Of a stretch of 64,000 bases of DNA, positions 9,429 to 63,143 are shown piece after piece. Source of the stretch: Paraburkholderia phytofirmans OLGA172. Its GTDB lineage: Bacteria > Pseudomonadota > Gammaproteobacteria > Burkholderiales > Burkholderiaceae. The translations under genes and the position numbers were made by a program. The notes under the pieces are model-generated. The model was not told where the DNA came from. It did no database searches and saw only the letters and a list, made by a program, of their open reading frames with translations. The stretch spans positions 1,798,001 to 1,862,000 of the forward strand of contig NZ_CP014579.1 of assembly GCF_001634365.1 (NCBI RefSeq). The letters run 5' to 3'. Position 1 is the stretch's first letter. Every line of letters starts with the position of its first letter.

Positions 9429-10178
9429 ATGAGTAGATTGCTTAACAAGACTGCAGTGATTACTGGCGGAAACAGCGGCATCGGCCTGGCAACGGCCAAA
9501 CGATTCGTCGACGAAGGCGCGCACGTCTTCATCGTCGGCCGACGTCAGGCAGAACTCGATCAGGCGGCCGCTCAGATAGGCAAGAACGTCACTGCCGTAA
9601 AGGCGGACGTCACCAAACTCGAGGACCTCGACCGCCTGTATTCAATCGTTCGGGAACAGCGTGGACAGATTGACGTTCTGTTCGCCAATTCTGGATCGAT
9701 CGAACACAAGACACTCGAACAGATTACGCCGGAACACTACGACAGGACGTTCGATGTCAACGTGCGAGGTTTGATTTTTACCGTGCAGAAAGCACTTCCC
9801 CTGTTGCGCGAAGGCAGTAGCGTTATTCTCACCAGTTCGATCGCCGGTGTATTGGGGCTTGAGGCACACGATACCTACAGCGCAGCCAAGGCAGCGGTCC
9901 GCTCCCTGGCCAGAACCTGGACGGTCGAGCTAAAGGGAAGAGGTATTCGAGTCAATGCCATTAGTCCGGGGGCAATCGACACACCCATCATCGAAAGCCA
10001 GGTAACCACTCCGGCCGAGGCGGATGCATTGCGTGCCAAGTTCGCCTCGGTGACACCTCTGGGCCGCGTGGGGCGCCCTGAGGAATTGGCGGCTGCCGTA
10101 CTCTTCCTGGCTTCGGAAGACAGTAGCTACGTGGCAGGCATAGAGCTATTCGTGGACGGCGGATTAGCGCAAGTCTGA
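9429..10178 (+). CDS. SDR family oxidoreductase
   Basis: A 249-residue classical short-chain dehydrogenase. Cofactor motif TGGNSGIG (12-19), NSGS block (87-90), catalytic S136/S137, Y150 and K154, and C-terminal FVDGGLAQV. Two arginines after the second strand (GRRQ) suggest NADP(H). GGAG precedes the chosen ATG; an upstream ATG at 9390 has none. The gene is convergent with the LysR gene at 10271-11194, so the two may be unrelated. Substrate unknown. Confidence 0.9.
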   Translation: MSRLLNKTAVITGGNSGIGLATAKRFVDEGAHVFIVGRRQAELDQAAAQIGKNVTAVKADVTKLEDLDRLYSIVREQRGQIDVLFANSGSIEHKTLEQITPEHYDRTFDVNVRGLIFTVQKALPLLREGSSVILTSSIAGVLGLEAHDTYSAAKAAVRSLARTWTVELKGRGIRVNAISPGAIDTPIIESQVTTPAEADALRAKFASVTPLGRVGRPEELAAAVLFLASEDSSYVAGIELFVDGGLAQV

Positions 10179-26743: not shown

Positions 26744-27535
26744 TCACCGCTCTGACGCGTCGGCACGCGAATAGCCGTCTCTCCAGAACACACCGTCAGC
26801 CCGTATCGTCGTTCGATCGAGAATACGATGCTGATCCATGGAGATCGGCGTAGCACGATGGGCAACCCTGAAGTTGTCAGCGATGACGACATCGCCTTCG
26901 AGCCAATGATGCACGTAAGAAGCGCCTGCGCGAGAAAGGTGCTCGTTCAGATGGTGCCGCAATGCCATGAACTCTTCGTTCGTATAGCCAACGATGCCGT
27001 GAGTAAGGCCGACATTGAAGTACAGCGACGGGTCGCGGGTGGCGGCATGACGGATGACGAGCGGGTGTTCTACTCCATTTCTATGGAGCGTGATGAGGCC
27101 ATCGATCGAGGCCTTCCGGTCGTCTGGAAGGGTCCTGTAGGCTTCCCGCAGATCTGTAAATAGCGTCTCGCCGCCATCGGCCGGCCGTGCAACCAGATAC
27201 CAGATCGAAATGGGCGTCGCCTGTGCGCGAAACGAGCCGTCGGAATGCCAGTAGCGGCCAACGTTTGTGTGGCCATTGGAAGGACGGCTAGCCACGCGGA
27301 AAATTTGAGGAGAATCGGCCAACTGGCCTTCACCGGGGGGGAACGTCTCAAGGGTTCCAAAGATCTCTGACATCCTGACCTGATCGGCGGGCGAGAGCTT
27401 CTGATTCCGTATGGCCAGCAAGCCATGCTCGAGAAGTGCCGTGTGCAAGAGATCGGTATCCCTTTGCGTCAACGAGACCAGATCGACCTCTTCGACCCGC
27501 GCGCCAAAACTCGCATGCATCGCGCTGATCTTCAT
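26744..27535 (-). CDS. TauD/TfdA family Fe(II)/2-oxoglutarate dioxygenase
   Basis: A 263-residue dioxygenase. The facial triad is H97-x-D99 in RYWHSDGSF and H226 in VAHRATP; the 2-oxoglutarate Arg is in the HRILDR segment (R237/R241). TLETFPPGEG and DGGETLFTDLREAY are family blocks. GGAGGAAACG precedes ATG 27535; the longer frame (27604) lacks a site. Members hydroxylate taurine, 2,4-D, alkyl sulfates or similar acids, and there is no sulfonate transporter nearby to suggest taurine. Same strand as the OYE and CMD genes, but spaced by over 180 bases from each. Confidence 0.9.
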   Translation of the reverse strand: MKISAMHASFGARVEEVDLVSLTQRDTDLLHTALLEHGLLAIRNQKLSPADQVRMSEIFGTLETFPPGEGQLADSPQIFRVASRPSNGHTNVGRYWHSDGSFRAQATPISIWYLVARPADGGETLFTDLREAYRTLPDDRKASIDGLITLHRNGVEHPLVIRHAATRDPSLYFNVGLTHGIVGYTNEEFMALRHHLNEHLSRAGASYVHHWLEGDVVIADNFRVAHRATPISMDQHRILDRTTIRADGVFWRDGYSRADASER

Positions 27536-27722
27536 CGTTTCCTCCGATTGTTGCAGCCGTGCCAGATATCTCCCGCTGGAAGTCCGCCTTAAGTGCCTCG
27601 ACACGTCCAGTCAAAGAAGCGACGCACCTTCGCAAGAGCGGCTCGCCTGGGAGAGACGCTCCCGGCTGATGGGGTGCGGGGAACGGCCGATACCGACCAT
27701 TCCCCGTTTTCGTTCACGCAGA

Positions 27723-31392: not shown

Positions 31393-31998
31393 CTATCGGG
31401 ACACGAGCTTGGCCGCCAGCTCGGTGACGTGCTTACCTTGATAGCGTGCGATGTCCAGTTCGTTCGCGCTGGGTTGACGGCTGCCGTCTGCGCCGGCGAG
31501 CGTCGTCGCACCGTAAGGCGTGCCGCCGGTGATTTCGTCCATCTTCGTGAGGCCAGCACATGCGTACGGCACACCGACGACAACCATGCCGTGGTGGAAG
31601 AGCGTGGTGTGGAACGACGAAATCGTAGTCTCCTGGCCGCCATGCTGCGTGCCGGTGGAAACGAACACGCTGCCAATCTTGCCGACCAGCGCGCCCTTCA
31701 TCCACAGGGCGCCGGTTTGGTCCAGGAAGTTGCGCATTTGCGCGGCCATGTTACCGAAGCGGGTCGGCGTACCGAAGATAATGGCGTCGTAGTCCGCGAG
31801 TTCATCGACCGTCGCAACGGGTGCAGACTGGTTCAGCTTGATGCCGGTCGCCTTCGCCTGCTCGGCGGGAATCGTCTCGGGCACGCGCTTGAGCGTCACG
31901 GTCGCGCCAGCGACTGATTTCACGCCTTCAGCGATAGCGTTCGCCATCGTTTCGATGTGTCCGTAGGACGAGTAATACAGCACCAGAATTTTGGTCAT
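31393..31998 (-). CDS. wrbA: NAD(P)H:quinone oxidoreductase, WrbA
   Basis: A 201-residue flavodoxin-fold quinone reductase (two-electron reduction of quinones, FMN). FMN phosphate loop [13 protein letters not shown], the family signature [31 protein letters not shown] and GVPYAC complete the site, and the length is that of E. coli WrbA. Very similar to the WrbA half of the fusion at 33288-34478. A 15-bp palindrome (32022-32036) lies in its leader. Its 3' end touches an IS6 remnant. Confidence 0.95.
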
Positions 31999-33287: not shown

Positions 33288-34478
33288 ATGTCGAAGATTC
33301 TTGTTCTTTATTACTCGTCGTACGGTCACGTCGAAAAACTTGCGCAAGCCGTCGCAGAAGGTGCCCGCTCCATCAACGGCACACAGGTCACGATGAAGCG
33401 TGTTCCCGAGACCATCCCCGCTGAGCAGGCGAAGGATGCTGGCATCAAAATGAACCAGAAGGCGGAGATTGCAACCGTCGCTGAACTCGCCGAGTACGAC
33501 GCCATCATCTTCGGTACGCCTACGCGCTTCGGAGATGTGGCGGCGCAGATGCGCAATTTCCTCGACCAGACTGGAGCTCTCTGGGCAAAGGGAGCATTGG
33601 TTGGCAAGCTGGCGAGCGTGTTCATCTCGACCGGCACTCAACACGGTGGACAGGAAACGACGCTACGCTCGTTCCATACCACGCTCCTCCACCATGGCAT
33701 GGCAATCGTCGGTGTTCCCTATGCGTGTCAGGGCCTCACCAAGATGGACGAAATCACCGGCGGCTCGCCGTACGGTGCCACGACGCTCGCAGGCGCAGAC
33801 GGCAGCCGTCAACCCAGCGCGAACGAGTTGGACATCGCGCGATACCAAGGGACATACATCGCAACTCTCGCTGCGCGCCTCACCGTGCAGCCGCCTCAGA
33901 ATGCGACTTCGACCCAGGCGGCGGCCAACCCGGCTGGCAAGACCGCTTCCGCAACCAGCAAAGTCGAGTCGACGAGTACGACGCGTGCGAGCCGCGAAAA
34001 TGAAGGACGCAAAGAAGCAGTACGCGCGGAGCCAAAGCGCGCGAACGCTGCAAACAACAGTCACGTGCCGGAGAGCTGGTTGAGCAGAAACAGCGATACG
34101 GCGCTGCTCGTCTCCCGTGTTCTGATGATGGTCCTCTTCCTCCTGTTCGGGTGGCAGAAGCTGACCGGGTTCAGCGGCACCATTGGGTACATGGCAAGCG
34201 TCGGCAGCCCGGCTCCGGGCCTTGCGGCGGCGGTCGCCGTGATTATGGAGCTGGCCGTTGGGTTACTCATCGCCGTGGGCTTCTATACCCGGCCGCTGGC
34301 TCTGCTGCTCGGCCTGTACACGCTCGGCACTGCATTGATCGGTCACCACTACTGGACGATGAGCGGTATGGAGCAGTACGCGAACATGATTAACTTCTAC
34401 AAGAACATCAGCATCATGGGCGGCCTGCTTCTGCTCGCGGCCTCCGGTCCCGGCCGTTTCTCCTTCGACAAGAAGTAG
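33288..34478 (+). CDS. WrbA-DoxX fusion protein
   Basis: A 396-residue fusion. Residues 1-200 are a complete WrbA quinone reductase ([41 protein letters not shown]), close to the separate WrbA at 31393. Residues about 200-265 form a polar Ala/Thr/Ser/Lys linker. Residues about 266-396 are a DoxX-type four-helix membrane domain ([59 protein letters not shown]). No frameshift or stop separates the halves. The product would tether quinone reductase to the inner membrane, where it could reduce membrane quinones. Follows pirin. Confidence 0.92.
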
Positions 34479-42500: not shown

Positions 42501-43457
42501 CTAATCCACAACTTCCATTGCGGCGAAACTGTTTCCCGCTTCACTCATCGACGAGGCAAAGCGCCAGCGCTGACTGCGCACCTCGTGCAGCACCCTCTCC
42601 TCCAGCGCCTTGGTCACTTGCTGCAAGCCCACGCTATGCCGGCGTTCTTCGCTGCGGAAGATCGACCACGTAATGAATAGCCCCTTGATCGGAGCAAAGG
42701 ACAGCATGTCCAAATCTGGGCATTCATGGAGGGCACAGTAGGGTACGACTGTATATCCCAGCCTGTTTTTTACAAGCGCAAGGCACAGTCCGAGCGTCTC
42801 GACTTCCGCGGCACGGATAAAAGTCTGGCCGTGGCGCTTAAGATATCCGACCACGCTGTTTCGTATAATGTTCGGGCGCCCCGGGAGAGCGAGCGGGATC
42901 GAGCCGATCCGATCAGCTGTAATCGGCGTATCCGGCTGAAGACCGTGATCGGCGGGGGCGACCAGAAGAAGCTGTTCCCGTACCAGGGGCGTTTGCACCG
43001 TTTTAGGCAGCGGCCTTTCGGAAAAATGCATGATCGACGCGTCGACGAGCCCCTGCTCCGTCCATTCGCGAAGATGATGGTTAAAGGCTTCGAAGACCTG
43101 TAGCTTAACGGTCGGCTGCTGTGCGATGGTCTCCACGGTGAACGGCACCGTAATTAGCTTGTGCATGGACAATGGCAGACCGATAGCCACCTGAGCCTGT
43201 GGCTGATGCCCGATTTCACTGCGCAAGAGCTGGGCCCGCCTCAAGATCGGCGGTGCACCCCGTACAAGTTTTTCTCCTGCATCCGTCAACTTCACACCGT
43301 GCGCATCACGAGTCAGCAACCGTACACCCAGTTCGTGTTCCAAGGCGGCGATGCGCCGCGAAAGCGCAGGCTGAGTCATGTCCAGTTCGAGTGCAGCACG
43401 GTTTATGCTGCCATATTCAGCAACCTGAAGGAAACACTCGACTTTTTCCAGATCCAT
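42501..43457 (-). CDS. LysR family transcriptional regulator
   Basis: A 318-residue LysR protein: MDLEKVECFLQVAEYGSINR, helix-turn-helix LDMTQPALSRRIAALE, effector domain from AQVAIGLPLSMHKL. Paralog of the LysR at 37665. It lies between the divergent cupin gene (43589) and the MaoC-BKACE operon, making it the natural regulator of both. Its first codons fall at the edge of the 748-bp repeat; in the other copy (about 53278) only MDLDK of this gene survives. Confidence 0.92.
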   Translation of the reverse strand: MDLEKVECFLQVAEYGSINRAALELDMTQPALSRRIAALEHELGVRLLTRDAHGVKLTDAGEKLVRGAPPILRRAQLLRSEIGHQPQAQVAIGLPLSMHKLITVPFTVETIAQQPTVKLQVFEAFNHHLREWTEQGLVDASIMHFSERPLPKTVQTPLVREQLLLVAPADHGLQPDTPITADRIGSIPLALPGRPNIIRNSVVGYLKRHGQTFIRAAEVETLGLCLALVKNRLGYTVVPYCALHECPDLDMLSFAPIKGLFITWSIFRSEERRHSVGLQQVTKALEERVLHEVRSQRWRFASSMSEAGNSFAAMEVVD

Positions 43458-44194
43458 CGTTCTCTCCCTTGATTTCGCAAATGGGTCTTAAACGGAATAC
43501 GTTGAACGGTCATGCCAATTATCGCCTAGTCGTACAGGTTAGCGAACTTTAACATTCACTCAGACTAGTCAACCATAGGAGACCTGAAGTGAATGATGCA
43601 AGCAAGCGTGTGCCGCTGCGGCGCGTGGTGACGGGATTCGACGAGGCGGGCAAGTCGGTGGTAGCTCAGGACGGCGGATGCGATTTCGTCCTGGACAAGT
43701 CGCCGGCCTGGATCGTGACCGATCTGTGGATGACCTCCGATGACGCCGCCGCCGATGCCTCGAAGAAAGAAGCCTGTACGAACGATATCAGTCTGATGCC
43801 TCCGTCCGGGGGTAGCGTGTTCCGCGTCGTCCAGTTTGCTCCGGACAAGGACTATATGGGCAAATGGGATGCGGACGCGGCGTTCGCCAGCGTGGGCCAC
43901 CACACGAACGACGCGCAGAACCGGCCGAGCGATGAGGAAGCAGGCAAGATCGCCCGGCCGAAAGGAATGCACCAGACCGACACGGTGGATTACGCGATTG
44001 TGATGTCGGGTGAGATCTGGCTCGTAATGGACGAGGGAGAAACCCTTCTGAAAGCCGGCGACATCCTGATCCAGCGCGCCACCAATCACGGCTGGAGCAA
44101 TCGCAGCGATAGCCCCGCACTCGTCGCATTCGCGCTGCTTGATCAATCGAAAAAGTAATCTCCGCGAGAACCAGTCTCATGACAGTGAGCGAGG
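43447..44194. repeat. Inverted 0.75-kb repeat, left copy (cupin gene with promoter)
   Basis: This stretch recurs in reverse orientation at 52542-53288. It includes the first codons of the LysR gene, the LysR/cupin intergenic region, the whole cupin gene and about 35 bases beyond. Within the cupin genes the encoded proteins differ by one residue (S58 here, A58 there), and the promoter regions are nearly identical; divergence is higher at the extreme left end. Confidence 0.9.
43589..44158 (+). CDS. Cupin-domain protein (copy 1)
   Basis: A 189-residue protein with GTG start, AGGAGACCTGAA upstream. The C-terminal cupin barrel (about 110-180) has MHQTDTVDYAIVMSGEIWLVMDEGE (motif 1, with His/Asp in place of the full H-x-H) and KAGDILIQRATNHGWSNRS (motif 2 His). 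An N-terminal 100-residue region has no recognised domain. It resembles the YlbA/gentisate-type single-cupin proteins found in aromatic catabolic clusters; enzymatic role unproven. Duplicate at 52578-53147. Confidence 0.85.
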   Translation: MNDASKRVPLRRVVTGFDEAGKSVVAQDGGCDFVLDKSPAWIVTDLWMTSDDAAADASKKEACTNDISLMPPSGGSVFRVVQFAPDKDYMGKWDADAAFASVGHHTNDAQNRPSDEEAGKIARPKGMHQTDTVDYAIVMSGEIWLVMDEGETLLKAGDILIQRATNHGWSNRSDSPALVAFALLDQSKK

Positions 44195-44620
44195 GAACCT
44201 GCCGACTCGTGGCCGGGCAGTTCATGCCAACGGCCGCATTGTCTGCTAAGTAGGGGCGTGCCACGCAAGGTTCGACCCTCTGGCGGGCCCGGTTGGGCTG
44301 TCATGGGTTGTCGGACGTGCCAACTCGTCAAATGCGGCGATGCAAGAGCGGTTGTCATCGACAACTGTGGCCGCATCCCACAAGTGGAGAAGCTCGCCGA
44401 AATAGTGGTTGCGGTTGGCGATTTCCTCAACATCGCATAAGCAGCACTCAAATATGCAGTCTTTTCTGAGTACTTCGATCTTGCGCAGACCTATCCTACG
44501 GACACCTACGTGAGCTATCTATGCGACAAGCAGGACACTCACACAATCACCAACAGCGAAGCCGCTGACCTGCGGCATCGCCTCTAAAGTCGCATCAACC
44601 GTAAATAAAAGGAACTTGAT
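44195..44620. other. Interval with a degenerate coding stretch
   Basis: From about 44258 the plus strand has a frame (MGCRTCQLVKCGDARAVV...) that ends at TAA 44438-44440. The same frame resumes and runs AALKYAVFSEYFDLAQTYPT, then DTYVSYLCDKQDTHTITNSE, to a stop at 44587. The second part has convincing protein-like composition, so this may be a gene broken by one stop codon. No family recognised. The promoter of the OsmC gene must lie here. Confidence 0.4.
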
Positions 44621-52532: not shown

Positions 52533-52541
52533 GCCCCTTTT

Positions 52542-53288
52542 CCTCGCTCACTATCATGAGACTGATTCTCGCGGAGATTACTTTTTCGATTGATCAAGCA
52601 GCGCGAATGCGACGAGTGCGGGGCTATCGCTGCGATTGCTCCAGCCGTGATTGGTGGCGCGCTGGATCAGGATGTCGCCGGCTTTCAGAAGGGTTTCTCC
52701 CTCGTCCATTACGAGCCAGATCTCACCCGACATCACAATCGCGTAATCCACCGTGTCGGTCTGGTGCATTCCTTTCGGCCGGGCGATCTTGCCTGCTTCC
52801 TCATCGCTCGGCCGGTTCTGCGCGTCGTTCGTGTGGTGGCCCACGCTGGCGAACGCCGCGTCCGCATCCCATTTGCCCATATAGTCCTTGTCCGGAGCAA
52901 ACTGGACGACGCGGAACACGCTACCCCCGGACGGAGGCATCAGACTGATATCGTTCGTACAGGCTTCTTTCTTCGCGGCATCGGCGGCGGCGTCATCGGA
53001 GGTCATCCACAGATCGGTCACGATCCAGGCCGGCGACTTGTCCAGGACGAAATCGCATCCGCCGTCCTGAGCTACCACCGACTTGCCCGCCTCGTCGAAT
53101 CCCGTCACCACGCGCCGCAGCGGCACACGCTTGCTTGCATCATTCACTTCAGGTCTCCTATGGTTGACTAGTCTGAGTGAATGTTAAAGTTCGCTAACCT
53201 GTACGACTAGGCGATAATTGGCATGACCGTTCAACGTATTCCGTTTAACGCCAATTTGCGAAATCAAGCGGCAGAATGATGGATCTGG
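52542..53288. repeat. Inverted 0.75-kb repeat, right copy
   Basis: Reverse-orientation partner of 43447-44194. It ends on the right within ATGGATCTGGA, the start of the LysR gene of the other copy; here only MDLDK then unrelated sequence follows. On the left it ends 10 bases before the MarR start. Confidence 0.9.
52578..53147 (-). CDS. Cupin-domain protein (copy 2)
   Basis: A 189-residue protein identical to copy 1 (43589-44158) except A58 for S58. Same GTG start and same ribosome site AGGAGACCTGAA. Cupin barrel and motifs as in copy 1. The promoter region is also duplicated, so both copies are probably expressed under the same control, unless the divergent LysR operator is incomplete here. 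Downstream neighbour is MarR instead of the degenerate stretch found after copy 1. Confidence 0.87.
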   Translation of the reverse strand: MNDASKRVPLRRVVTGFDEAGKSVVAQDGGCDFVLDKSPAWIVTDLWMTSDDAAADAAKKEACTNDISLMPPSGGSVFRVVQFAPDKDYMGKWDADAAFASVGHHTNDAQNRPSDEEAGKIARPKGMHQTDTVDYAIVMSGEIWLVMDEGETLLKAGDILIQRATNHGWSNRSDSPALVAFALLDQSKK

Positions 53289-53426
53289 ATAAAGATATCG
53301 CGAGCTATCGCTCTGCGTTCTGGATGTCAGCTGTCAGCAGCTGTTCGCGAAGGCCCACTACGCTGCCGCGACAATTTCTTTCGCGAGCACAATGGAACTG
53401 GCATTTCGCAATGTGGTTCTGAGTGG

Positions 53427-53564
53427 CTAATCTTCACCATGCTTTGACGTCAGATATCCTGCCGTCATCCCACCGTCTATCTCCAGAATGGACCCATGAG
53501 AGGAAAGCAACCTCGATATTGCCCCGGCAACATCGGAGGGCGTTGCGAATCCAAGTTTCTGCAC
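53427..53564 (-). pseudogene. C-terminal remnant of an SDR
   Basis: The minus strand reads VQKLGFATPSDVAGAISRLL, then SSHGSILEIDGGMTAGYL, and stop. This is the last helix-strand unit of short-chain dehydrogenases (PSDVA-AI-LLSS---I-VDGGMTAGYL). The upstream 100 residues are not SDR-like. It lies downstream of the reductase gene at 53715, whose own 5' end is SDR-derived. Confidence 0.7.
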
Positions 53565-53714
53565 GCTGAACGACCCTGGCTGGCCAAGACCGGCGAAACG
53601 CGTTTCCAGTATCGCTGAACACGTCCAATAAACATTCCCACCCTCGTCAAGGCAAGCCTCAGTCCTTCGCATTCGTCACCGCGCCAAAACGTCGATGCAT
53701 TGACCTGCGTTGAA

Positions 53715-54731
53715 TTACAAGTCGAGCACGAGGCGTGCTGACTTTGCGCGCGAGCAGCAGGGCAGGAACTGGTTGTTGGCCGAACGCTCCTCGGGCGTGA
53801 AATACACGTCCCGGTGTTCGGGCTCGCCTTCCAGAACTCGCGTCAGGCATGCGCCACATACGCCCTGCTCGCATGAAGTCTGGATCTTCACGCCAGCCTC
53901 CGAGAGCGCCTCAACCACCGTCTTGTCCTTTGGCACCACTATGATCCTGCCTGAACTCGCAAGCTTCACCTCGAAGCTGCCATCCGCGTCGCGCTTGATC
54001 ATGTCAGAGCCGAAAAACTCGAAGTGGATCTGCGCCTCGCACCATCTGTACGCACGCGCCGTCGACAGCACCGCGTCGATGAACCCCTTGGGTCCACAGA
54101 CGTACAAGTGCGTGCCCGCCTGCTGCGCTTGCAGCACCGCCGCGATATCCAGCTTCTGCCGTGGCTCCCCGTCGTCGAAGTGAAATAGCACTTTGCTGGC
54201 GAACGCAGAGCGTCTGATGCGCTCGAAGAATGCCGTACGCCCCTTCGAGCGCGTGCAATAATGCATTTCGAATTCCTTTCCTAACGCCGCCAGACGTTCG
54301 GCCATGCACAATATTGGCGTGACACCAATCCCACCCGCGAGCAGGAGACTCTTGCCCGCCTCGTGCGCCAACGCGAAATGGTTCTTTGGAATACCGACAT
54401 TAAGAAGGTCGCCCTCTTTGACCCGCTCGTGCATGGTCTTCGAGCCACCGCGCGAGACCGGATCATTTAGCACACCGATCAGGTAGCGATGGCTTTCGGC
54501 CGGATCGTTGCACAGGGAGTACTGACGTGTCAGCCCACCGGGAAGGTACACGTCCAGGTGCGAGCCCGCCGAGAATGCCGGTAGAGAATCGCCGCCAGCG
54601 CTGACTAACTCGAAGGTACAAATGTCTACGGCCTCGAAGATCTTTCGGGCCACGCGAACACGGAGGCTGGAAACACTGCTGCCGCCGGCGACCATTGCAA
54701 CCTCGCCGTTCAAGTTGATCGATTCGTTCAT
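53715..54731 (-). CDS. PDR/VanB-type oxygenase reductase, with SDR-derived N-terminus
   Basis: A 338-residue flavin/NADH/[2Fe-2S] reductase that feeds electrons to Rieske oxygenases. FMN site R69-x-Y71-S72 in TRQYSLCN; NAD motif LLLAGGIGVTPIL (about 129-141); plant-type ferredoxin C287, C292, C295 in SCEQGVCGACL and C325. Residues 1-20 (MNESINLNGEVAMVAGGSSV) match the first residues of the SDR at 56274, including the nucleotides, and then reductase sequence begins. So the 5' end is chimeric, made by recombination inside the TGGSSG codons. Normal VanB proteins start near residue 22. M13 is a possible internal start. Confidence 0.88.
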   Translation of the reverse strand: MNESINLNGEVAMVAGGSSVSSLRVRVARKIFEAVDICTFELVSAGGDSLPAFSAGSHLDVYLPGGLTRQYSLCNDPAESHRYLIGVLNDPVSRGGSKTMHERVKEGDLLNVGIPKNHFALAHEAGKSLLLAGGIGVTPILCMAERLAALGKEFEMHYCTRSKGRTAFFERIRRSAFASKVLFHFDDGEPRQKLDIAAVLQAQQAGTHLYVCGPKGFIDAVLSTARAYRWCEAQIHFEFFGSDMIKRDADGSFEVKLASSGRIIVVPKDKTVVEALSEAGVKIQTSCEQGVCGACLTRVLEGEPEHRDVYFTPEERSANNQFLPCCSRAKSARLVLDL

Positions 54732-54898
54732 TGCTTTTCAGGTTTCCGATTCTTCGACTGATGAAGCCGGTTAACGCGGTGCTGGCTGGCCAAGATGCCG
54801 AACAACGCTTCGGCCAGCTCGCGTTCGTATGCCGGTGGCGTGAGATTGATCGTGCGATAGGTGAACTCCTGCAACTGGACTCCCTGTGGCTTTGTCAT
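54728..54898 (-). pseudogene. Truncated recombinase-like small protein (copy B)
   Basis: A 56-codon frame, MTKPQGVQLQEFTYRTINLT, then PPAYERELAEALFGILASQH, then a new tail ending at TGA 54728-54730. The first 37 residues match the full-length protein at 58573-58881; after that the sequence switches to the region preceding the SDR gene (57027-57060). Its stop overlaps the reductase start as ATGA, so it could still serve translational coupling. Evidence for an internal deletion of a duplicated operon. Confidence 0.8.
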
Positions 54899-55010
54899 GG
54901 CATCTCCTTGATGAACGGTACGGAGCGGGACACCCAGAGCGACTTCATCCTATCGTAAACGACTTCCTCAATTCGTAAATCCATCCAGTTCCTATGGTTA
55001 ATGCGAAAGG
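54780..55010. repeat. Direct repeat, copy B (promoter and first codons)
   Basis: Repeats 58768-58995 in the same orientation. It covers the leader, ribosome site (AAGGAGATGCC), start and about 37 codons of the recombinase-like gene. Differences are scattered single bases and a few small changes in the 5' leader. Confidence 0.85.
54953..54980. promoter_or_regulatory. Candidate operator, copy B: TCGTAAACGA plus TCGTAAAT
   Basis: A 10-bp palindrome TCGTAAACGA (54953-54962) followed by a half-like site TCGTAAAT (54973-54980), starts 20 bp apart, i.e. two helical turns. The same pair with the same spacing is in copy A (58935-58962). It lies between the reductase operon and the divergent IclR gene, so IclR binding is plausible. 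Confidence 0.5.
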
Positions 55011-55263
55011 TCTCGCTTCCTTCTGCAGACGAGCTTGGAGACCCGGCCATTCCTTACCTGCATTACGAAAACCGGTAACCATGTCAAATTTATGGCTTTT
55101 ACGTATTGCGGAATTCCTTTTCGCTATGATGACGGGGCCTGTCAACCGCATGTCGTCTGACCGTCATGACTGAACGCAGGATCCGATTTCCCCTTCTACA
55201 GCGCCGGGCAGGCACGCAGTGCGCCCCTGCTTCACGATACGCGCGCGGCGCAATGGGTGGCAC

Positions 55264-56130
55264 ATGACCAAAATGAGAACACTGGCTAACCAAAGCGATC
55301 CATCGCACGACGAGCAACTGGCGGAGCTTTCAGACGGCAATGCTCGCGGCGGCGTGCAATCGATAGAAGTCGGTGCATCGCTGCTGGCAGTACTCGCACA
55401 TGCCGATGCTGGACTTTCGTTGACGGCCCTCGCATCCGCGACCGGGATGCCGGCGAGCAAGGCGCATCGCTACCTGACTAGTTTCGTTCGGGCAGGCATT
55501 ATCGAGCGGGATGCCGCCAGCGGACTTTTTGACCCGGGCCCACTTGCTCGAGCGCTCGGGCTGGCGGCACTTCGCCGACAAGATACGGTGCTGGAAGCCG
55601 CTAGCGTGATGGAAGCTCTGCGGGATGAGCTGGAAGAGAATGTGGTCCTTTCCGTCTGGGACGAAGGTGCGCCCGCCATGATCAGGGTAGAAGAACACTC
55701 ACGCGCGTTCTCGATCAAGGTAAGGATCGGCGCGCGATTACCGCTATTAACATCCGCGCAAGGCCAGATCTTCGCTGCATGGCTTCCGCCTGCACTCACG
55801 AGAATTCATATTGCACGCGAATTGCAAGATAATAGCGATGCACTGCGACGCATAGGAGTGCGGTCAGAAACCGATCTCGCCAAGTTGCTTGCTAAAATTC
55901 GCCGCGACGGTGTCGCTACGTTAGTCGGCGGGATTGTCGAGGGCATTTCGGGGACGACTGCGCCGGTTTTTCGCTATCCCGGTACCCTGGCCGCGGCGAT
56001 GACGGTTCTGACTATTGGCAAATGCAGTCCCCAGTTGCAGAGAACAATTCAGACCGCGCTTAAAGCTGCGGCAGCCGAGCTTTCCGAAAGACTTGGTGCG
56101 CCAATCCCGCCGAAAACGAGCGAAGGCTGA
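55264..56130 (+). CDS. IclR family transcriptional regulator
   Basis: A 288-residue IclR protein. Winged helix about 35-95: VGASLLAVLAHADAGLSLTALASATGMPASKAHRYLTSFVRAG; effector domain from about 115 with ENVVLSVWDEGAPAMIRVEE and the C-terminal GIVEGISGTTAPVF block that shapes the ligand pocket. ATG 55264 is preferred; ATG 55273 is also possible. Divergent from the reductase operon and convergent with the Rieske operon's last gene, so a regulator placed between the two arms of the system. Confidence 0.92.
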   Translation: MTKMRTLANQSDPSHDEQLAELSDGNARGGVQSIEVGASLLAVLAHADAGLSLTALASATGMPASKAHRYLTSFVRAGIIERDAASGLFDPGPLARALGLAALRRQDTVLEAASVMEALRDELEENVVLSVWDEGAPAMIRVEEHSRAFSIKVRIGARLPLLTSAQGQIFAAWLPPALTRIHIARELQDNSDALRRIGVRSETDLAKLLAKIRRDGVATLVGGIVEGISGTTAPVFRYPGTLAAAMTVLTIGKCSPQLQRTIQTALKAAAAELSERLGAPIPPKTSEG

Positions 56131-56273
56131 TGCGAGCATTGGAAAGCGTGACTCAATGCCTTCTGGACTGCGTCGTTGCGTATGTAATCTCGTCGATCAC
56201 GTGCAAAAGCTGGCTTCAGGCTGCGTTCTCTTCGCGATGACGATTCACTCGTGCTCGACAAGCGCCATTGCAT

Positions 56274-57026
56274 TCACAAATGTCGTCCGCCATCGACCAC
56301 AATGCGCACTCCCGTCGCGACGGTCAGATGGGTCACACATGCCATGATCGCCTTCGCGACGTCTTCCGGTTCAACGACCCGCTTTAAAGGCGTCGACGCC
56401 ACAAACGTATTTAACGCTTCGCGGTCTCTGCCTGGAAGGAAGTCTGTGGCGACGGCAGCGGGCGAGACGCATAGCACTCGCACTTCCGGACCTAGCACTC
56501 GCGCAAGCGACATGGTCATCGTGTCGACAGCTGCCTTTGCCGCGCAATATGCGATGTTGCTACCAGATCCAGTAAAGGCCGATATCGACGATACATTCAC
56601 GACAACGGCATCGCCCGACGCGCGCAACAAGGGCAGTAGCGCACGAATGACCGAGTAAGGCCCGCGAGCATTCGTGACCAGCATCGAATCAAACAGCGTC
56701 TCGTCAAGCGCGTCGAGATTGGAATGCGCAATGGGTTGAGTAAAGCCGGCGGAGTTGACGAGCACATCGACCTTTCCGTATTTGTTCTGCAATTCATGCG
56801 CGAGTGCCCGAGTGGTCGTTACGTCTTCGAGCTCGACCTTCGCGATCTCGTGCCCGGTACCGGGCAAGCTCTCACATAACCGGCGCGCGCGGTCTTCGCC
56901 GTTGTTATATCCGATTACCACGCTCGCGCCGGCTCGGGCGAGCATCTTCACCGTCGCTGCCCCGATGCCGCTGCTACCACCGGTGACCATTGCAACCTTG
57001 CCGTTCAAGTTGTTCGATTCGTTCAT
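56274..57026 (-). CDS. SDR family oxidoreductase
   Basis: A 250-residue classical SDR: MVTGGSSGIG (13-21), NSAG (91-94), catalytic S147, Y160, K164; C-terminus RIVVDGGRHL. Last gene of the minus-strand Rieske operon, 54 bases after the YCII gene. In the pathway it would oxidise a cis-diol or alcohol, but substrate is not proven. Its first 57 or so bases also occur at the start of the reductase gene at 54731, a mark of recombination. Confidence 0.92.
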   Translation of the reverse strand: MNESNNLNGKVAMVTGGSSGIGAATVKMLARAGASVVIGYNNGEDRARRLCESLPGTGHEIAKVELEDVTTTRALAHELQNKYGKVDVLVNSAGFTQPIAHSNLDALDETLFDSMLVTNARGPYSVIRALLPLLRASGDAVVVNVSSISAFTGSGSNIAYCAAKAAVDTMTMSLARVLGPEVRVLCVSPAAVATDFLPGRDREALNTFVASTPLKRVVEPEDVAKAIMACVTHLTVATGVRIVVDGGRHL

Positions 57027-57080
57027 TGCTGTTCAGGTCCACGATTCTTCGACTGACGAAACTCGTTGAAGGGTTTGGCG

Positions 57081-57497
57081 CTAGCCTACCTCGATCCGTC
57101 GCTCGGTAAGGCGCACCGTCAGCTGGACGCAGCCCTCGTTCATCCACCAGGGGACGATGCGGTACGTGCGAAGTCCACTCTTGTGAAACGGACACGTATC
57201 GGCGATTTCGGCAGCTTGCTCGCGCGATTCGGCACGCAGGATGAACATCCCATCGCCATTCCAGTAGGCGGGATCGTTTTTGTCACGGAACGGTCCCGCA
57301 GCAAACGCAATTCCCTTGTGCTCCAGTCCCGCGATCCAGGCCAGATGCTCCGCCATCTTTGGCCTGAGGTTTGCCATCGGATCGCCTTCGCGCTCCGTGC
57401 GCTCAGTAAAGCAGATATAAAACTGCTGGCGCGCCAGGCGCTCGCGCAAGGCAAGTTCGTTCTCGTCGTCCGTAAGGACGTCCTGATGCTGGTTCAT
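57081..57497 (-). CDS. YCII-domain (YciI-like) protein
   Basis: A 138-residue protein. The YCII barrel spans about 30-125: QQFYICFTERT, PKMAEHLAWIAGLEHKGIAFAAGPF with the conserved His, and DGMFILRAESREQAAEIADTCPFHKSGLRTYRIVPWW. YCII-family members include dehydrochlorinating (TftG) and muconolactone-isomerase-like enzymes. Starts after the strong site GGGGGGCACGGAG; a TTG five codons earlier is in frame. It lies between the Rieske and SDR genes. Confidence 0.85.
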   Translation of the reverse strand: MNQHQDVLTDDENELALRERLARQQFYICFTERTEREGDPMANLRPKMAEHLAWIAGLEHKGIAFAAGPFRDKNDPAYWNGDGMFILRAESREQAAEIADTCPFHKSGLRTYRIVPWWMNEGCVQLTVRLTERRIEVG

Positions 57498-57539
57498 CTC
57501 CGTGCCCCCCAAGATTGGCGCTGCCTACGATGTGCTTAC

Positions 57540-58580
57540 CTATGCTTCCGCTCCGGTACGCATCCGCTCTCTGCTTTCCAGTTGCTTGCGCACCACGTCG
57601 CGCACGTGGCGACGCAGCCTCGCCAGGCCAACATCGTGCTGGTACAGCTTCTCCTGCATCGGCCACGGGGGCATTCCTTCCAGTATGTCCTTGTCTTCCT
57701 GGACAATTTCCCAGTTGAAATGCTCCAACTTCGTGTTGAACATGAAGCGAAACAGGTCCGCTTCCCAACCGGCGACATTGCGCATTCGCCAAATGGTGAT
57801 CTGGCAGGTATGCTCGTCGATCGGTGTAGCCAGCGGAAAGACGCGCCAGTTTCCGCCAGGCCCGCATTCCGGCGGCGCGTTGTAGCCGATCCGGAACCAG
57901 AACGCACCGGTATCGATAAATTCCATCAGTTCGACGTTGTCGCCCTTGCTGATCTCCCTGCGTACCGTGAAGCCGGTATCCGTCGGCGTGACTAGCACCT
58001 GATTGGCAACCCCGCTCTCGAAATACTGGGTGTCCTTGTGCAGATACTCCGGATGCATGATGTCGAGCACGTTGTCCCACATGTACTGGTAGTTCGTCTG
58101 CCAGGTCATGGAGATGGGGAATCCGGTCCAGTCAGCCGACTCGTATTCACGGGGAAAAACAAGGGGCAAAGGCTCGGTATCCTCGTCCTCGCCGAACCAC
58201 GCCCAGAGCCCCTGGAAATGTTCGACCACCGGATAGGAGCGAACCATCTTCTTGCCGACATACGCACACTGAGGGTAGGCAGGCACTGCAGTGACTACTC
58301 CCTCCCCCGACACCTCCACACCGTGATAGCGACAGCTCAGCTTCCCATCCTCAAGCCGGCCCATCGATAACGGCGCTCCGCGGTGCGGGCAGATATCCTC
58401 GATCAGGTTGACCTTTCCGCCTGTATCCCGCCACGCCACCAAAGCCACGCCCAGACGTTTGATGCCGACAGGCTGGTTACCGACCATGGCGGATGGGCCA
58501 ATGCACCACCAGCGATTGCGCACACCAGTCAAAACGCTCCGCTCGACGCGATCCTCGATTCGCTCATTCTGTTCAAGCAT
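57540..58580 (-). CDS. Rieske non-heme iron oxygenase, alpha subunit (VanA-like)
   Basis: A 346-residue Rieske oxygenase. The [2Fe-2S] ligands are C64-x-H66 in CPHRG and C83-x2-H86 in CRYHG. The mononuclear iron site is NVLDIMHPEYLH: N170, D173, H176, H181. Length and single-subunit layout resemble VanA-type O-demethylases and phthalate-type oxygenases rather than two-subunit benzoate dioxygenases. The matching reductase is at 53715. The start overlaps the preceding recombinase-like gene by eight bases. Substrate unknown. Confidence 0.94.
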   Translation of the reverse strand: MLEQNERIEDRVERSVLTGVRNRWWCIGPSAMVGNQPVGIKRLGVALVAWRDTGGKVNLIEDICPHRGAPLSMGRLEDGKLSCRYHGVEVSGEGVVTAVPAYPQCAYVGKKMVRSYPVVEHFQGLWAWFGEDEDTEPLPLVFPREYESADWTGFPISMTWQTNYQYMWDNVLDIMHPEYLHKDTQYFESGVANQVLVTPTDTGFTVRREISKGDNVELMEFIDTGAFWFRIGYNAPPECGPGGNWRVFPLATPIDEHTCQITIWRMRNVAGWEADLFRFMFNTKLEHFNWEIVQEDKDILEGMPPWPMQEKLYQHDVGLARLRRHVRDVVRKQLESRERMRTGAEA

Positions 58581-58881
58581 GATTTGCCTCCCTAAGGCTC
58601 AACCCTGGATAGCCATGCGCGCCCACACGCGCTCCCACGCTGTTGGTCCAGGACCCAAGACGCCGCATCTCCGCCCTGAAGGCGGTCGCACTCCACTGTC
58701 CGCCGCCACTCGGCTTGAAACCGGCCTCATTGAGCGCTGCTGCGATTGCTTCCGGCTCATGAACCGAACTGCCCAAGATGCCGAACAACGCTTCGGCCAG
58801 CTCGCGCTCGTATGCCGGCGGCGTGAGATCGATCGTGCGATAGGTGAACTCCGGCAACTGGACTCCCTGTGGCCTTGTCAT
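58573..58881 (-). CDS. Recombinase-like small protein, first gene of Rieske operon
   Basis: A 102-residue protein starting MTRPQGVQLPEFTYRTIDLT. The region EAIAAALNEAGFKPSGGGQWSATAFRAEMRRLG resembles the helix-turn-helix after the catalytic core of serine recombinases (N-x-x-G-x-x-x-P-x-G-G-x-W), but no catalytic Ser domain is present. It is therefore a stand-alone recombinase-like domain. It overlaps the Rieske gene and so is probably translationally coupled to it. Role unknown; it could bind DNA or help assembly. AAGGAGATGCC precedes the ATG. Confidence 0.82.
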   Translation of the reverse strand: MTRPQGVQLPEFTYRTIDLTPPAYERELAEALFGILGSSVHEPEAIAAALNEAGFKPSGGGQWSATAFRAEMRRLGSWTNSVGARVGAHGYPGLSLREANHA

Positions 58882-58995
58882 GGCATCTCCTTGATGAACG
58901 GTACGGGGTGAGGCCCCCGAGTGACTTCATCCTATCGTAAACGATTTACACCATTCGTAAATCCATCCAGTTCCTATAATTAATGCAAGTGGCCA
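58768..58995. repeat. Direct repeat, copy A (promoter and first codons)
   Basis: Partner of 54780-55010, same orientation. Intact, since the full recombinase-like gene and Rieske operon follow. Confidence 0.85.
58935..58962. promoter_or_regulatory. Candidate operator, copy A: TCGTAAACGA plus TCGTAAAT
   Basis: TCGTAAACGA at 58935-58944 and TCGTAAAT at 58955-58962, spacing as in copy B. Upstream of the recombinase-like/Rieske operon. Candidate site for the IclR regulator at 55264. Confidence 0.5.
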
Positions 58996-59104
58996 CCTTC
59001 CTTCTCCAACCACGCGCACGAACAACGGCTACTTTGGACTGTGCCGCGTCGCCCTGCCCTTACTCTTCCGATTCCTTTACCGTGCGCGGCGCATAGAGGC
59101 TGCG

Positions 59105-59350
59105 CATCGTGCAGTTGATTGCCAGCGTTTCGGCGCCGTGCTCGCCGTAGAGGTTCGGATCCTCGACGAACAGCGTTATGTGCTCGCTAACCCGTTCGCC
59201 GGCATCAAGGTACGCGGCAATCCCCGGATCGCGATGCTGGACACCTCTCGGGTTTTAGCGAAGGCGAGTGGCTACTCGTGCGTACCGTCTCGGACGGACT
59301 TGAGCACTCGTATGGCTGGTCTGATTCAGCCGCGCGGCGACTGCGGCGCT
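59105..59350 (+). pseudogene. Tyrosine recombinase (phage-type integrase) remnant
   Basis: The plus strand reads RILDEQRYVLANPFAGIKVR, and then, after a frameshift at about 59250, GFSEGEWLLVRTVSDGLEHS followed by YGWSDSAARRLRRS. These are the N-terminal core-binding to catalytic-domain transition of a tyrosine integrase (EQRYVLANPFAG-K-RG and GEWLLVRTV-DGLE-SYGW). The catalytic R-H-R-Y residues are all missing downstream, where the AEC gene's 3' end begins. Confidence 0.75.
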
Positions 59351-62796: not shown

Positions 62797-63143
62797 TCTG
62801 TTCCCGGACGGTGAGAGCACCCATTTTTCTCCGGGGCGCTGGCTCGGAACCAAGCTTTCTCAATGTGCTGCCGCATCCTGGCGCAGTCTGCCATCAGGCG
62901 TGGCGGGGGCGTTAAACGTCTTATGCCGGCCTGGAATGGATGTTATGTGCCTGGAGGGTCTTCTGCCAGCGTGACGCCGCGCGCATCATCTGCATACCAC
63001 GAATTTCCCGTTGGGGAGAAGATCGTGAGCAACTATAAGAACCCCATCGGACATAGTGAGAAGCCCTTCGATAGTATCTAATGAAATTGGGCCGCTGCAG
63101 ACTGGCGGCTCCAATTCAGTACGTTCGGACATAGGAGAACATC
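62797..63143. other. Divergent intergenic region, LysR / crotonase
   Basis: 347 bases between divergent genes. Promoters for both should lie here. A plus-strand frame ending at 63081 has a protein-like C-terminal part (YHEFPVGEKIVSNYKN) but no recognised family. No hairpin of note. Confidence 0.35.

Follow-up and report, generated by a model that had tools for sequence, protein, structure and literature searches.

The locus considered here lies in Paraburkholderia phytofirmans OLGA172 (NZ_CP014579.1), within a stretch of 64,000 nt (the window; all coordinates given below are positions within it), and concerns a reductase gene whose 5' end is composed of parts of a neighbouring Rieske oxygenase operon. 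This operon (operon A, or copy A where its matching parts are meant) occupies nt 58990 – 56274 of the minus strand, is intact, and consists of a leader followed by genes for a small HTH_62 protein, a Rieske oxygenase, a YCII-domain protein and an SDR oxidoreductase, with HTH_62 directly before the oxygenase and the SDR gene downstream. A second unit on the same strand, copy B, carries a leader, an open frame of 56 codons, and the chimeric reductase gene, which specifies 338 residues. Between the two units is a plus-strand gene for an IclR-family protein, divergent from copy B. It scored 87.7 bits against the TIGR02431 model (PcaR/PcaU/PobR), which is under the cut-off of 284.75, and may regulate the A/B locus. 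A survey of open reading frames (ORFs) and Pfam domains detected no reductase gene in the region of operon A and no oxygenase gene in copy B, and since each unit lacks what the other carries, the two together would form one working system.

Correspondence between copy A and copy B

Copy B (nt 55007 – 54786) matches copy A (nt 58990 – 58769) over the leader and HTH_62 codons 1 – 37. When nt 53300 – 55200 were compared by BLASTN with nt 56200 – 59300 (minus strand), two blocks were returned, one covering the leader and the HTH_62 start (216/242 identical, E 3e-88) and the other the start of the SDR gene (80/90, E 1e-29; from nt 54765), which bears out the multi-block chimera proposed in an earlier, sequence-only reading of this DNA. 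Chance similarity can be rejected from these values and from the occurrence of only one other matching place in the genome: against all 8.57 Mb, the copy B block matched itself and copy A only (E 1.5e-83 for the latter). The similarity is also not limited to the promoter, as the block alignment reaches into HTH_62 and SDR codons (identities per block are given in Table 1). Six codons of the HTH_62 5' end are changed between the copies, two of them silently, and the stretch preceding the SDR gene (nt 54732 – 54794) is identical at 46/64 positions. The copy B DNA was unmatched in the plasmid collection.

The first block ends with HTH_62 codon 37 (nt 54786), and the second strong block begins at nt 54765. 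The 25 bases at nt 54766 – 54790 match the sequence just past the YCII stop codon at 13/25 positions, a value that 1597 of 200000 random places also attain, and because this match is weak the first join was either direct (close to the YCII stop) or includes other sequence, of about 25 bp at most. Near this join the three sequences TTGGGCAG, TAGGCTAG and TTGGCCAG have a few bases in common. What lies between HTH_62 codon 37 and the YCII gene end is absent from copy B, as had been claimed. The second join falls at codon 19/20 of the SDR gene, a short way beyond the point where the reductase natively starts; codons 1 – 19 align between the copies, and from codon 20 onward the sequence is of the reductase side. 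The proposed in-frame union of the SDR start with a complete reductase was confirmed by the block alignment, both being contained in a single ORF (nt 53715 – 54731). A coding region has, in this way, been joined in frame to the 5' part of another gene, from its leader through the start codon to the first few codons, and the donor, operon A, is still present and intact. A simple tandem duplication via a short junction, with no deletion, is disfavoured by the order of the copies, as it would put the chimera upstream of the intact copy, while here it is the intact copy A that lies upstream.

Mismatches between the two leaders are clustered (equally clustered in 283 of 20000 shuffles), and three exact blocks remain, one of 25 nt on the upstream side, one of 22 nt spanning TTTACGATAGGATG, and one of 25 nt that leaves the ribosome-binding site identical in A and B. 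Promoter-like hexamers, TTTACG-N16-TACGAT, are also identical, with 4 of the 16 spacer bases differing (by eye on the alignment), and each hexamer was read by eye as fitting the consensus at 4/6 positions. A pair of conserved boxes occurs in both leaders and, with up to 3 mismatches allowed, at only these two places in the genome; no third copy was found. The statement that the reductase sits behind a leader of oxygenase-operon type is well founded, and on this basis the reductase is predicted to be under an oxygenase-type promoter and to be turned on jointly with its oxygenase. The stop codon of the intervening 56-codon frame overlaps the reductase start, and the two may be translationally coupled. 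A database search with the 56-residue product returned itself and one other protein, P0167, an HTH_62 protein of 88 residues that runs on beyond codon 37.

Table 1. Features of the two units and the intervening gene (positions in the window)
Feature	Position (nt)	Strand	Evidence or remark
Leader A, promoter-like region and ribosome-binding site	58882..58990	-	94/110 identical to leader B
Conserved box pair A, GGATTTACGAAT-N5-AANTCGTTTACGATAGGATGA	58927..58964	-	Genome pattern scan
HTH_62 ('recombinase-like helix-turn-helix') small protein, 102 aa, operon A gene 1	58573..58881	-	Pfam PF20552, E 3.1e-14
Rieske oxygenase (VanA_C type), 346 aa	57540..58580	-	Pfam Rieske 1.1e-17, VanA_C 3.1e-10
YCII-domain protein, 143 aa	57081..57512	-	Pfam PF03795, 4e-10
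SDR oxidoreductase, 250 aa, operon A last gene, donor-type 5' end	56274..57026	-	Pfam adh_short_C2, 5.5e-45
IclR-family regulator (putative)	55219..56130	+	Pfam IclR_C 3.1e-18, HTH_IclR 7.4e-14
Leader B, upstream of chimeric reductase	54899..55007	-	BLASTN and block alignment
Conserved box pair B	54945..54982	-	Genome pattern scan
HTH_62 first 37 codons, truncated, copy B	54786..54898	-	107/113 identical to 58769-58881
56-aa open frame (37 HTH_62 codons and 19 others)	54726..54898	-	Stop overlaps reductase start (ATGA)
Near-copy of stretch just before SDR gene	54732..54765	-	Second BLASTN block begins at 54765
SDR codons 1-20 fused in frame to reductase	54672..54731	-	52/60 identical to 56967-57026
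Chimeric reductase (VanB/phthalate dioxygenase reductase type), 338 aa, native from about residue 20	53715..54731	-	PDB 2pia match

The chimeric reductase and its relatives

From residue 23 to its end at residue 338 the reductase matches phthalate dioxygenase reductase (PDB 2pia, E 1.5e-72), so that its likeness to the VanB/phthalate dioxygenase reductase family is that of a whole reductase. The Pfam domains follow the expected order, a flavin/NAD domain (NAD_binding_1, residues 130 – 221) and then a C-terminal 2Fe-2S ferredoxin domain (Fer2, residues 257 – 330), and four cysteines (C287, C292, C295 and C325), which we take to be the cluster ligands, are invariant across 41 sequences. In an AlphaFold2 model (mean pLDDT 78) the first long strand begins at residue 23, and residues 1 – 19 fall under 50. 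Since, apart from the reductase itself, only 2 of the other 40 rows in the 41-row alignment used for the model cover the start, the low values there are weak evidence of disorder. The reductase is whole and, according to the model, folded from residue 23, and electron transfer from it to the Rieske oxygenase is predicted. It differs from its family in two respects: 22 residues of SDR type precede the first strand in place of the few residues of the usual short native N-terminus, and the gene is in a separate, similarly led unit instead of being directly beside that of the presumed oxygenase. An alternative start at Met13 was rejected, as this residue is not conserved and is Ile in P0047 (see below).

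In a search for homologues, 8000 candidates were scored, of which 5108 passed, and the starts of the best 120 were inspected. A native-type start, mostly short (e.g. MNxSTLxVRVARK), is found in 118 of these 120, and the SDR-type start in only two, P0046 (MNESINLNGKVAMVTDGSSVSS...) and P0047 (MNETTNLDGNVAIVTGGGRPSR...), so it is not a natural beginning of such reductases in many genomes. Both proteins are 338 residues in length, 95% (P0046) and 75% (P0047) identical to the window reductase, and have a 22-residue SDR-type start joined at the same residue. Of 19 residues of the operon A SDR start, P0046 has 17 in common, the window reductase 16 and P0047 12. Relatives were also sought in genome sets of the genus, family and order, which overlap, with up to 14 candidates per genome being scored in the 144 genus genomes and up to 5 in those of the family and order. 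Reductase matches at E ≤ 1e-100 occur in 80 of the 144 genus genomes, and among the matches listed only the window's own starts before residue 6; four others that start at residues 6 – 12 were read, and none has an SDR-type start fused in frame. Among 20 loci in named genomes, only L022 (matching from residue 2) and L025 (from residue 11) start before residue 18; both were read, and neither is of SDR type. In L022, upstream of its position 10001, the reductase frame is open into what appears by reading to be the tail of an oxygenase gene, and may represent an oxygenase-reductase fusion.

The window reductase, P0046 and P0047 form one clade in a tree of 121 rows (SH-aLRT 99) and again in a tree of 43 rows hand-picked from these (bootstrap 100, not fully settled, and SH-aLRT 99), the 22 start residues having been left out of both. 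P0047 is the sister of the other two with high support. The simplest reading is that the fused start had a single origin, before P0047 split off, and it has stayed in frame across a split that is now one of 75% identity.

An 81-residue frame following the reductase (nt 53427 – 53672) has the look of an SDR tail by eye, but was rejected as such: Pfam gave no support up to E 10, the best PDB match had E 0.25, and the best blastp match to the ORFs of 19 loci had E 1.1.

Related loci and the presumed ancestral order

HTH_62 is present in 104 of the 144 genus genomes. In all 30 of the best-scoring loci (L095 – L124) it lies directly before a Rieske gene, and in 26 of them an SDR match follows; the latter show the order of copy A minus the inserted YCII gene, although their oxygenases are only about 38 – 42% identical to that of copy A. 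Three of the 30 have the order HTH_62, Rieske, a RidA-like gene (so labelled from reading its translation) and reductase. HTH_62 may represent an unrecognised partner of Rieske oxygenases, and a literature search found no paper on HTH_62 or PF20552 'recombinase-like helix-turn-helix'. One database protein, P0031, combines HTH_62 and Rieske domains in a single chain.

A second type of operon was seen among 50 reductase loci (whose source genomes may overlap, no two of the sequences L013 – L061 being identical). In 28 of the 50, a count that leaves out six repeat entries among 34 rows, a Rieske gene is found no more than 1.5 kb upstream of the reductase. In six, an SDR gene abuts the reductase, and all six have a Rieske gene before that SDR. 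In five of the six the abutting genes share a reading frame, with a single stop and a few codons between them, and by reading this holds for L156 too, while an IclR gene is divergent from the Rieske gene in three of the six (tblastn), L157 having an IclR-like ORF by reading. Pieced together from the two operon types, the ancestor would have had an IclR gene divergent from an operon with the order leader, HTH_62, Rieske, YCII, SDR and reductase.

Close relatives of the oxygenase are sparse in the genomes searched. Across 398 family genomes, the best other oxygenases among the matches listed are about 42% identical. The protein database holds 25 oxygenase entries at at least 64% identity, of which the first (P0001, 98%) may be the window's own cluster, and the plasmid collection has 25 records with a relative at E ≤ 1e-60, all below 60% identity. 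A scan of viral_contigs with the oxygenase alignment found no relative.

Origin, parallels and genomic setting

The arrangement of the reductase probably goes back to a duplication of the operon followed by two deletions in one of the copies, by which the reductase came to lie under what is predicted to be an oxygenase-type promoter. Starting from the ancestral order given above, the segment from leader to SDR would have been duplicated, giving copy A, and copy B would then have lost one segment from HTH_62 codon 38 to about the end of the YCII gene and another from SDR codon 20 to the native start of the reductase. This would have retained the leader, the ribosome-binding site and the SDR start codon in frame with a whole reductase. 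The joins themselves are visible in copy B, and the order of events is a reconstruction. The fused start has been inherited, and is common to the two further reductases of the clade. The reductase made from copy B would be produced together with the oxygenase of copy A, and feed it electrons.

Several observations do not fit this reconstruction easily. The whole ancestral order, as an undivided operon, was not found among the loci of relatives, which do not include the contigs of P0046 and P0047. In five HTH_62-Rieske-SDR loci for which 15 – 17 kb are available (L125, L129, L130, L132 and L133, of which one is from the genome of the window itself) there is no reductase match at E ≤ 1e-3, so that the HTH_62 arrangement and the adjacency of SDR and reductase come from different operon types; moreover, the reductases with an abutting SDR gene reach only some 55% identity to that of the window. 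At E ≤ 1e-110 the window Rieske gene is found in no genome but its own, both among the 144 of the genus and among the 399 of the order, and the database search with the 56-residue frame found no such short frame elsewhere. Divergence between the copies is uneven, with 6/113 positions changed in the HTH_62 5' end and 18/64 in the stretch before the SDR gene (Fisher p 4e-5, the smallest of four such tests, the other three giving p 0.02 to 0.05), and the two leaders appear more alike than the age of the P0047 split would allow, unless their likeness has been maintained by selection or gene conversion. As to joint control, a scan for sigma-70-type sites (9 of 12) passed none on this strand, and a 6+6 palindrome of leader A, ATTTAC-N7-GTAAAT, is broken in leader B, which speaks against identical control, so that A and B need not be regulated alike. 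Finally, another reductase could serve the oxygenase, as 14 further reductase-like places are present in the genome at E ≤ 1e-5, with 57% identity for the best of them.

The uneven divergence would be explained by a capture in two steps, in which the fusion of SDR start and reductase is old and the leader and HTH_62 block was added or replaced at a later time, through recombination or gene conversion involving copy A. This is a real possibility, if a tentative one. The noncoding stretch before the SDR gene is 72% identical, compared to 95% for the HTH_62 5' end and 85% for the leader, the 25 bases between the strong blocks match weakly, and the leader match looks younger than the fused start, which was present before P0047 split off. 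SDR codons 1 – 20, however, are 87% identical, near the value of the leader, and with so few sites the differences between blocks may reflect uneven constraint. A recent, strain-specific duplication and deletion, the version put forward in the sequence-only reading, is very improbable. It would account for the high identity between A and B, and for the absence of an oxygenase match at E ≤ 1e-110 from the 143 other genus genomes, but is contradicted by the clade described above and largely refuted by P0047, which has the fused start at the same residue yet is only 75% identical and sister to the window reductase and P0046. Duplication with deletion stands as the best reading of the history; the freshness of the event does not.

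It is also conceivable, but unlikely, that copy B is a leftover, its reductase serving another oxygenase or not being expressed from leader B, with the 20 SDR codons as harmless baggage. The truncated HTH_62 gene, the predicted disorder of residues 1 – 19, the 14 other reductase-like places in the genome and the frequent position of reductase relatives beside other Rieske oxygenases (28/50 loci) are all compatible with this, whereas the retention of reductase and fused start in frame across the 75% split, the identity of the ribosome-binding block and both promoter-like hexamers between A and B, and the absence of a reductase gene from operon A argue against it. A view at the opposite end, that the chimera is a selected regulatory device, is doubtful. 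One oxygenase system would then be split into two look-alike units on the two sides of the IclR gene that regulates it. The unit with the reductase would have retained the leader of the oxygenase operon, an SDR start and, for coupling, the frame of 56 residues, and the ratio of oxygenase to reductase would be set by the two leader copies. If it were true, duplication and deletion would here have built a co-regulation that has persisted in nature for a long time.

With duplication and two deletions as the preferred history, the locus is a natural example of promoter capture, clean though modest. No paper on such a fusion was found in the literature. The closest published parallel found is that of sigH in Staphylococcus aureus, where short-junction tandem duplication gave chimeric nusG'-sigH and rplK'-sigH genes; its authors describe this as the first bacterial example of its kind to their knowledge (PMC3486894). 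In both cases a gene's own start has given way, in frame, to that of a neighbour (promoter, ribosome-binding site, start codon and first codons), and the donor remains intact. The S. aureus case is an unstable laboratory rearrangement arising from one duplication (PMC3486894), whereas the fusion in the window is natural and inherited, seems to need internal deletions, lies downstream of the intact donor, and joins parts of one predicted enzyme system. A further article, citing Blount 2012 and Anderson and Roth 1978, outlines in its introduction how deletions or tandem duplications lead to promoter capture (PMC11111574). There, as here, a rearrangement brings a coding region under an adjacent promoter, but the cases named in that outline are experimental, while that of the window is natural and common to a 75%-identical lineage. 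The published captures with chimeric starts that were found are laboratory events, and the window offers a readable donor operon, readable joins and two further carriers. Should the predicted co-regulation be real, the locus would provide a concrete test of whether duplication and deletion can build lasting joint control of one enzyme system.

The operon region appears to be outside the backbone shared with related genomes. Two genomes of the genus match this side of the window, G030 (96%) from nt 59342 and G062 (86%) from nt 59338, rightwards to nt 63031, and since the matches start only there, the backbone they have in common at this point does not include the operon region. Beyond this edge, both genomes match nt 26783 – 27581 of the window in inverted orientation, which indicates that the locus has been rearranged. 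Close upstream of operon A (nt 59061 – 59166) is a remnant, 106 bp long, of a gene for a conjugative coupling protein of TraG/VirD4 type, with about 92% identity to such genes in L150 – L152; that of L151 matches Pfam T4SS-DNA_transf with E 1.6e-93. The operon region may well have arrived on a mobile element.

Two inverted repeats were observed elsewhere in the window. One, of 756 bp (nt 43442 – 44197 and 52539 – 53294, 98% identical), has arms that enclose 8.3 kb and carries a cupin-like gene, which at 26.7 bits is just below the Cupin_2 cut-off of 27.2. The other, of 464 bp, is at nt 31436 – 31899 and 33387 – 33850, with arms that are 80% identical.

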